Source: Synechococcales cyanobacterium bin31.maxbin.ball.101
Lineage (GTDB): Bacteria; Cyanobacteriota; Cyanobacteriia; Leptolyngbyales; Leptolyngbyaceae
Direction of reading: 5' to 3'
DNA: 64,000 nucleotides
Assembly: GCA_013298165.1 (NCBI GenBank)
Contig: JAAFJU010000010.1
Span: forward strand, 1 to 64,000
The translations under genes and the position numbers were made by a program. The notes beneath the pieces were generated by a model that had not been told where the DNA came from, made no database searches, and saw only the letters and a list, made by a program, of their open reading frames with translations. Every line of letters starts with the position of its first letter. Position 1 is the stretch's first letter. Positions 50,611-52,641 of this stretch are shown here, piece by piece.

Positions 50611-51273
50611 ATGGGCGTCAACTCTTCAACTCAATCTTTCGAACGAACTATCCATCCAATTAACGTAGGTCAAAATACCGTGGAACTGAATCGAGAACAG
50701 GCCGAGAAGGATTTGCTAAATTTATTGCTTCCAACGGACCAAGTGAATCTCCAGTTCGATGAATCCGGTGAGTGGAAGGTTCAAGCATTGGATAGTGCAA
50801 AGGCGAAGATTCCCTATCCATTGGATCCAACGATCGCCGATGATTGGTTTGGGGGAATGTCGGTCAATTTGCTGGAGGGTTTCAGTGATGCGGAAGTGCT
50901 GGACCGATCGGATCGATTTTTTAGCGGTTTGGGACAGCTTTGGGCGGATGACTTGGCGACGGTGTTGATGCGCAAGTTCGTGACCGTTCCCCAGACTGTT
51001 CTGAAGGCGATCGCGCTCAAGGCTGAAAAGATGTCTACCGCATCAGGCGAACTCGCGGATCAACTGATTACTTGTGTGCAAGAAGCGCTCCCGAGTTGGG
51101 CTGAAGATGACTTGCGGGTTTTTGCCCGTCCCTATGCCTATGCGATGCGCGGTGAAGAGGAGAAAGTAGAACCTTCCAGTAAGGACTGGGCGGGTCTGTC
51201 TGAAATCGAACAAGCCAAACTCACATTAGAGATTGCAAAATATGCGATCGACCATGCTCAAACTGATTCCTAG
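50611..51273 (+). CDS. Conserved hypothetical protein
   Basis: 220 residues, soluble, with no recognised domain. The N-terminal half has short beta stretches (TVELNREQAEKDLLNLLLPT, VNLQFDESGEWKVQALD), then helices (DWFGGMSVNLLEGFSDAEVL, QLWADDLATVLMRKF, LADQLITCVQEALPSWAEDD). The C-terminus (LSEIEQAKLTLEIAKYAIDH) is helical. The start ATG at 50611 follows a GACGAGGTG-like region. The secreted caspase-fold gene is 120 bp downstream on the same strand, so cotranscription is possible. Function unknown. Confidence 0.7.
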   Translation: MGVNSSTQSFERTIHPINVGQNTVELNREQAEKDLLNLLLPTDQVNLQFDESGEWKVQALDSAKAKIPYPLDPTIADDWFGGMSVNLLEGFSDAEVLDRSDRFFSGLGQLWADDLATVLMRKFVTVPQTVLKAIALKAEKMSTASGELADQLITCVQEALPSWAEDDLRVFARPYAYAMRGEEEKVEPSSKDWAGLSEIEQAKLTLEIAKYAIDHAQTDS

Positions 51274-51393: not shown

Positions 51394-52641
51394 ATGAGCC
51401 GATCGCACGATGGTTTGAAGGCATTACGTTGGCTGTTGCCTGGACCGATCGTATTCTCCTTAATGAGCTGCGCTTTGGCCAAACTCCCCGCCCAGATTCA
51501 GGCTCAAAAACCGGATTTGAAGCCTAGTTCGAAACCGGGCTTGACGACCAAAACAGCCCCGAGTTTTATGGTGTTCGGTGGGGGTGGTGCGCCGTCTTAT
51601 AACGAGATTGCGATCGAAAAGAATGTTTTTTACTTTCAACGAACGCTCAAGGCATTAGGCAAAACCCCAGAGTCCACGAGCATTTGGTTCGCGAATGGGA
51701 TTGATGGTCGCAAGACGGTGCGCTATATGGATGGCGATCGGGAACGCTTTAAGGCTCCGACGGTGGATCCGATGGAAGGTCCGGCGACGATCGCGAATTT
51801 AAATTTGGCCTTGAGTGCGGCAGCGGAGAATGCGAAGCCGTTGTTTTTTTATTTCACGGGTCATGGCTTTCATAATCTGAAGAACGAAAATGATAATGCG
51901 ATGATTATGTGGAATGAGGATCTGATGACAGTCCAGAATTTCACTCGTCAGCTCGATCGGATGCCGCCGAAGAAGCCGTTTGTGACGGTGATGGTGCAGT
52001 GCTATTCGGGGAGTTTTGCGAATTTAATTTACCAAGGCGGAAATCCTAGAAAAGGGGTGGCGTTGCACGATCGCTGTGGATTTTTCGCGACGGTGAAGTC
52101 GTTGCCCTCGGTGGGTTGTACGCCGGAGGTGAATGAGGCGGATTATCAGGACTATAGTTCGAGCTTTTTTGCGGGGTTGAGTGGGGTGAGTCGGACGGGG
52201 CAAAAGGTGGCTTCGGCGGATTATGACCGGGATGGTCGGGTGTCCTTCCGGGAGGCTCATGCCTTTGCGAAAATTGATGAAAAAGCGTCAGATTTACCGA
52301 TTTCGACCCTTGAGGCTTGGTTACAGGAGGGGTTGACGAGTCGCGATCGGAGCATGATCTTAACGATGCCGATCGCGGAGATTTTGAACGATGCGCGACC
52401 GGAGCAAGTAAAGGTGGTGACGGTGTTGGCGGAGTTGCTGGGGTATGACTTGAAGCGATCGAATCGGGAGAATCGGACGAGTCGGAAGCCGAAGGGAGAT
52501 GAGTTGAAGCAGACCTATAGTGAGCGGTTGGCGATGGAATTGTTGAATATTCAGGCAGAGAAGCGGGTCAGGGCAAAGGGAAAGGCGGAGGCGTTGGCGG
52601 TTTTGGAGCGGTTGTTGGGATGTGAAGGGCGATCAATTTGA
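51394..52641 (+). CDS. Secreted caspase-fold cysteine peptidase with EF-hand loop
   Basis: 415 residues. Residues 10-35 (RWLLPGPIVFSLMSCALA) form a signal peptide with a lipobox-like LMSC. A clan CD caspase/legumain-type core follows: strand SFMVFGGGGAPSYNE, catalytic His157 in FFYFTGHGFHN and catalytic Cys203 in TVMVQCYSGSFANLIY. Residues 276-287, DYDRDGRVSFRE, match the 12-residue EF-hand calcium loop (Asp276, 278, 280, Glu287), placed inside the peptidase domain's later part. The C-terminal region is basic and helical (RKPKGDELKQTY, KRVRAKGKAEALAVLERLLG). The protein may be a calcium-responsive envelope peptidase. Substrate and activation are unknown. Confidence 0.82.
   Translation: MSRSHDGLKALRWLLPGPIVFSLMSCALAKLPAQIQAQKPDLKPSSKPGLTTKTAPSFMVFGGGGAPSYNEIAIEKNVFYFQRTLKALGKTPESTSIWFANGIDGRKTVRYMDGDRERFKAPTVDPMEGPATIANLNLALSAAAENAKPLFFYFTGHGFHNLKNENDNAMIMWNEDLMTVQNFTRQLDRMPPKKPFVTVMVQCYSGSFANLIYQGGNPRKGVALHDRCGFFATVKSLPSVGCTPEVNEADYQDYSSSFFAGLSGVSRTGQKVASADYDRDGRVSFREAHAFAKIDEKASDLPISTLEAWLQEGLTSRDRSMILTMPIAEILNDARPEQVKVVTVLAELLGYDLKRSNRENRTSRKPKGDELKQTYSERLAMELLNIQAEKRVRAKGKAEALAVLERLLGCEGRSI

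Follow-up and report, generated by a model that had tools for sequence, protein, structure and literature searches.

A complete gene in the 64,000-nucleotide stretch of DNA analyzed here, which we refer to as the window, encodes a 415-amino-acid protein that raises the question of whether a caspase-type peptidase outside the cytosol depends on calcium and, if so, in what way. The preliminary description of this DNA had proposed a secreted, possibly calcium-gated peptidase with an embedded EF-hand. The account that we consider, as a whole, probable on balance is that of an exported clan CD cysteine peptidase that lies outside Pfam families C14 and C13 and would hold Ca2+ constitutively at a site within the second half of its domain. 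The features of the gene and its product are collected in Table 1.

Table 1. Features of the gene for the 415-amino-acid protein, with positions in the window
Feature	Position	Strand	Basis
Complete gene, predicted exported clan CD (caspase/legumain-fold) protein, 415 amino acids	51394..52641	+	Open reading frame, homologs, predicted fold
Predicted N-terminal export signal, residues 1-26, with lipobox-like LMSC at its end (Cys26)	51394..51471	+	Family-wide hydrophobic N-terminus
Predicted caspase/hemoglobinase-fold core, about residues 57-300	51562..52293	+	AlphaFold2 pLDDT 95, pTM 0.94; Foldseek matches to legumain, metacaspase, caspase
His157 of catalytic type, in TGHG, immediately following strand 150-156	51862..51864	+	32/33 family members; predicted secondary structure
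Cys203 of catalytic type, in QCYSG, immediately following strand 196-201	52000..52002	+	50/50 aligned sequences
Cys228, probable disulfide partner	52075..52077	+	Exported family 33/33; canonical C14 rows 0/17
Cys242, probable disulfide partner	52117..52119	+	Exported family 33/33; canonical C14 rows 0/17
Putative EF-type calcium loop DYDRDGRVSFRE, residues 276-287, then helix 285-295	52219..52254	+	Asp276 and Glu287 50/50; Asp280 and Gly281 at least 90%
Helical domain at the C-terminus (residues 305-412) that includes the conserved Cys410	52306..52629	+	Predicted secondary structure; Cys410 32/32

The two residues previously picked out as a catalytic dyad are indeed at the positions given for them, His157 within a TGHG that starts at residue 155 and Cys203 within a QCYSG that starts at residue 202, and the loop DYDRDGRVSFRE starts at residue 276. 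Structure prediction and a family search yielded a confident caspase-like model and a family of 33 members. The alignment has 50 rows, the 33 family members and 17 canonical C14 rows, with identities down to 17%, and a position in its first sequence plus 51 gives the residue number in the protein. With these 50 rows, AlphaFold2 modeled residues 52 to 415 with a pLDDT of 95.1 and a pTM of 0.94, and His157 and Cys203 were predicted to lie at the ends of adjacent core strands, as in clan CD. This confident model was obtained with an alignment that contained canonical C14 segments; an earlier AlphaFold model from close relatives alone, with neither the C14 rows nor the divergent relatives, was poor across residues 203 to 302 and had a pLDDT below 50 for residues 226 to 302. 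When solved structures were searched with Foldseek, prolegumain and legumain ranked first (E values of 2.9e-7 to 1e-5), followed by Arabidopsis metacaspase 9 (E value of 6e-6), a GPI transamidase subunit, MALT1, and caspases, with probabilities of about 1.0, and by GSU0716 from Geobacter; the TM-scores were modest (TMq of about 0.3 to 0.44). Among predicted viral structures, a search returned caspase-domain proteins, mostly from giant viruses. Sequence searches of the solved structures by phmmer and by profile gave nothing above chance for the 415-amino-acid protein, and a search with alignment A2 gave weak matches only, with GSU0716 at an E value of 0.017. The model and the Foldseek matches place the dyad as expected for the caspase-type clan CD fold that had been suggested, and we regard this predicted fold as almost certain.

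That the protein is an ordinary orthocaspase was nevertheless not supported. It scored 16.6 bits against Pfam C14 (PF00656), where the cut-off is 21.4, and it was not among the C14 proteins of its own genome, of which four others were found. The gene itself is under purifying selection, with a core dN of 0.16 and a dS of 3.8 (saturated) against the nearest relative, L018. In DxC-type bacterial C14 proteins, an Asp precedes the catalytic Cys by two residues, and its role in the S1 pocket and in basic specificity is established. That Asp is absent from all 33 family members; the residue is Val201 in our protein and Val, Ala, Ser, Thr, Asn, or Gly across the family, so that, from the known role of the Asp, Arg/Lys specificity is unlikely. 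The S1 pocket would lack the Asp of the basic-specific bacterial caspase homologs, and the P1 preference should therefore differ from Arg/Lys. Orthocaspases (MEROPS C14, for example, MaOC1 of Microcystis) have been described as basic-specific, as lacking a p10, and as Ca2+-independent (PMC5756287, PMC8283722). They share with the 415-amino-acid protein the caspase fold and the GHG and C[HYF]SG motifs, and some of them carry an identically placed loop of this EF type within the C14 domain, whereas our protein falls below the C14 cut-off, is predicted to be exported, and has two extra invariant Cys residues, no Asp at Cys-2, and a C-terminal helical domain.

Pfam C13 (PF01650) does not accommodate the protein either, at 13.3 bits against a cut-off of 22.8, and L013, at 26.7 bits, was the only singly scored family member above that cut-off. 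Legumain, the C13 asparaginyl endopeptidase, is the best fold match and resembles our protein in export, which is predicted here, and in having a C-terminal helical part after the catalytic domain; it differs in the Glu of its EAC motif, which is absent from Cys-2 here, and we know of no EF-type Ca2+ loop in legumain. Legumains and a GPI transamidase subunit being among the best fold matches, and some members matching C13 better than C14, the protein might instead be no hydrolase but an enzyme of the legumain/GPI8 type that catalyzes transpeptidation or transamidation of exported proteins. We consider this highly unlikely: fold similarity does not tell hydrolases from ligases, and no genetic context, partner, or sorting-signal proteins were found that point to such a reaction. 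In the peptidase that we favor, the C-terminal helical domain, for which Pfam gave no match, may be a regulatory or prodomain-like module. Its conserved CE (Cys410-Glu411, window 52621 to 52626) is present in all family members that reach that far, Cys410 being found in each of the 32 long enough to show the residue. Cys410 is without a consistent partner across the family and without an obvious one in our protein. Pairing with an N-terminal Cys was rejected as a general rule, given that the 415-amino-acid protein, L018, and the myxobacterial orthologs do not have that Cys.

The proposal that the protein is secreted was supported by its export-type N-terminus, a hydrophobic stretch that recurs throughout the family except in L119, where the start is misassigned, and we hold export of the 415-amino-acid protein to be very likely on this sequence evidence. 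A lipoprotein signal as a trait of the family was not supported. The LMSC at residues 23 to 26 is lipobox-like, if weak (Met at -2 is unusual), and a lipobox-like Cys also occurs in L018, L009 (IIGC), L021 (LTSC), L026, L023, and most of the myxobacterial orthologs, but many cyanobacterial members have none. Predicted export is thus a family trait, and lipidation is not. Predicted TAT-type signals have already been noted for cyanobacterial pseudo-orthocaspases (PMC6426788), and export of a cyanobacterial caspase homolog therefore has a precedent. The occurrence of Cys228 and Cys242 in every exported member and in none of the canonical rows fits a disulfide in an oxidizing compartment. With the exported family, two distant phyla would each have an extracytosolic protease of caspase fold whose specificity pocket is altered, and given that place and that pocket it is not an obvious cell-death caspase.

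The full EF-hand loop that had been read at residues 276 to 287 stood in part. There is a conserved 12-residue EF-type loop, with Asp at position 1, Asp or Asn at positions 3 and 5, Gly at position 6, and Glu at position 12. In the PROSITE EF-hand pattern, the Glu must in addition be followed by a hydrophobic residue. Position 13 is Ala288 in our protein, which thus does not match the full pattern, although several canonical C14 proteins do. Nor is a paired EF-hand or a compact helix-loop-helix predicted: the loop is single, with an exit helix (residues 285 to 295) that adjoins it and an entering helix (residues 254 to 263) that lies 12 residues away. When the protein sequence was shuffled, 0.3% of the shuffles contained a 12-residue EF-type loop and 0.07% the tighter form D.[DN].[DN]G. 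Conservation is the more telling sign. Invariant in all 33 family members were Cys203, Cys228, Cys242, Asp276, and Glu287; over all 50 aligned rows the only invariant residues were Gly158, Cys203, Gly206, Asp276, and Glu287. His157 was found in 32 of the 33 members and is lost solely in L118. The conservation that had been expected of a calcium site is present, with Asp276 and Glu287 invariant, position 3 always Asp or Asn, and Asp280 at position 5 and Gly at position 6 each kept in 30 of 33 members; the few that vary at positions 5 and 6 include L008 (DERV), L009 (NGKV), and L026 (SGQI). That variation, the single loop, and the nonhydrophobic position 13 would suit a mere conserved turn, with hydrogen bonds from the Asp/Gly/Glu pattern holding the p10-like half and no important metal. 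Such a turn is quite improbable in our judgment, as no variation was seen across the 50 sequences at positions 1 and 12, which hold the essential EF ligands, and only Asp or Asn occurs at position 3, which is the pattern expected of ligands. We consider binding of Ca2+ by the loop likely.

Bound Ca2+ could act as a switch or as a fixed part of the structure. In a calcium-gated peptidase, the loop would be empty at low Ca2+, its closing would switch the dyad on, and envelope Ca2+ would control proteolysis. The near invariance of both loop and dyad is in keeping with gating, but comparison of the EF residues with the dyad for co-variation gave no signal; both are essentially invariant, so that the test has almost no variation to use, and L118 lost its His yet kept its loop. 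The extracytoplasmic space is usually not Ca2+-poor, which also counts against gating. Metacaspases (types I and II) offer a parallel, sharing the fold and having Ca2+ dependence as a hallmark, and control of their catalysis has been attributed, as a proposal, to a low-affinity site in the p10 half (PMC5756287). The Ca2+ site that is known in metacaspases, however, has a different location, in the p20, at an Asp seven residues after the Cys (TbMCA D220, PMC9622860). The corresponding residue here is Asn210, with Asn in 23 of 25 close members, and our protein further differs from metacaspases in having no S1 Asp and in carrying its EF-type loop in the second half of the domain. We regard gating as unlikely, and Ca2+, if bound, more probably serves the structure than acts as a gate. 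With such a structural, constitutively held Ca2+, the protein would leave the cytosol by the Sec route, some members becoming anchored by a lipid, and its core would fold around a Cys228-Cys242 disulfide after export. Ca2+ from the Ca2+-richer extracytoplasmic space would then fill loop 276-287 and rigidify the second (p10-like) half of the domain, serving as a cofactor that leaves the enzyme competent only outside the cytosol and not as a switching signal, and His157 and Cys203 would cut peptide bonds, the putative activity.

The combination of export and an EF-hand had been singled out as unusual, and in this the preliminary description was not borne out, as the same loop occurs in canonical C14 proteins with no apparent export signal, such as L042, and predicted export and the loop occur together in L145 and L149. 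The cyanobacterial L042, which has no apparent signal peptide, carries the loop ADTDNDGNISVDELHEYA at the corresponding place, its segment SIYTRYLVEGIKIGAADTDNDGNISVDELHEYASKKV aligning with SSFFAGLSG...VASADYDRDGRVSFREAHAFAK of the 415-amino-acid protein. Its C14 match (91.7 bits) spans residues 3 to 225, and the L042 loop, at about residues 199 to 217, is therefore inside the Pfam domain. The myxobacterial lipoprotein-like C14 proteins (L145, L149, L154) combine an apparent lipoprotein N-terminus, a C14 domain, and a DRNGDGAVTATE loop; they are only about 20% identical to our protein and differ from it in scoring above the C14 cut-off (L145, L147), in having no Cys228/Cys242 pair, and in having no matching C-terminal domain. 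The wider C14 group to which they belong in Myxococcota (L145, L147-L154), some with an apparent lipoprotein N-terminus, has a motif like DRNGDGAVTATEAHDYARR, with Ala at Cys-2, so the basic-specific Asp is likewise absent there. In a census of canonical C14 proteins, an EF-type loop followed the Cys in 5 of 20 from cyanobacteria and 8 of 25 from myxobacteria, about 13 of 45 in total, at 55 to 96 and mostly 65 to 72 residues after the Cys, a fraction that is approximate because the census was rough and automatic and some Cys assignments are doubtful. When strict loop motifs were sought anywhere in the open reading frames of the census, 8 of 10 fell within 50 to 110 residues after the Cys. No loop was present in any of the four canonical C14 proteins that the query's own genome encodes.

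The loop is thus no peculiarity of the exported family; it recurs at the corresponding position in many ordinary bacterial relatives of caspases. In literature mainly outside subscription journals, we found no description of an embedded loop in bacterial caspase homologs; the only mention of an EF-hand in prokaryotic homologs was as an additional motif in seven archaeal proteins (PMC6426788). The loop is an apparently undescribed recurrent site in bacterial caspase homologs and a better lead than calcium gating. Tentatively, and with more doubt than confidence, we suggest that the loop about 65 to 77 residues after the Cys may be a widespread undescribed Ca2+ site of these homologs, a prokaryotic counterpart of the low-affinity site proposed for the metacaspase p10, and that many orthocaspases called Ca2+-independent may depend on calcium, in the cytosol and at the envelope. 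If this is true, a large share of the orthocaspases so classified would be calcium-dependent. With invariant Ca2+-ligand positions in about one-fourth of the bacterial C14 homologs examined, the generalization of Ca2+ independence is directly testable.

The exported family is small. A search with the single protein gave 11 clear relatives in 244 cyanobacterial genomes, the query's own included. In a species-level collection it gave 13 loci, of which one lies in an Archangium metagenome-assembled genome (MAG) whose contig also has a long open reading frame that we take to encode a LodA-type oxidase. A profile search found full-length relatives scattered over 12 of 386 cyanobacterial genomes, full-scoring orthologs in 11 of 193 genomes of Myxococcota, and eight further divergent relatives in Myxococcota at 23 to 26% identity. 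In the tree, the myxobacterial orthologs cluster together with 85/98 support, either within the cyanobacterial orthologs or next to them. By these searches, this is a small, predicted exported family that is common to cyanobacteria and, unexpectedly, Myxococcota. Its distribution is patchy, with decay in places. One of the 12 cyanobacterial genomes, G215, has a broken ortholog with stop codons in the gene (L015, L017), and another broken ortholog, from a low-coverage MAG, is frameshifted (L030:4000-5189). An ortholog in Alkalinema CAN_BIN05 (L025:1-213) has lost its N-terminal half, and the remainder is preceded by a transposase-like frame, presumably of the IS256 type. The divergent L118 (G400), in which GFG replaces GHG and the Cys and calcium loop are kept, is a probable pseudo-enzyme. 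L118-L125, from Myxococcota, form a divergent subfamily whose C-terminal domain has an additional insertion that looks helical; an RWP motif and an ACE motif at the terminus also mark this subfamily.

Comparison of gene neighborhoods revealed no conserved neighbor that points to a substrate, and no neighbor was common to four or more loci. The neighboring genes include those for PsbP-like and thylakoid formation proteins, which, together with the abundance of the HIP1 octamer, mark the genome as cyanobacterial, and local gene order is kept only in the nearest relative, L018. As that gene order is shared with L018 only, the idea that the protease gene works in an operon with the PsbP-like gene downstream was set aside. 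Upstream, a 220-amino-acid open reading frame (window 50611 to 51273) with no Pfam match likewise adjoins the protease gene only in L018, and it diverges at about the same rate as the protease. A scan for intrinsic terminators found none, and a search for relatives on plasmids or phages was also negative. PADLOC gave no match for the 415-amino-acid protein; 11 relatives matched a caspase model there, but only weakly, at E values no better than 1.7e-4. The HIP1 octamer GCGATCGC occurs in 37 copies in the whole window, against 1.5 expected.
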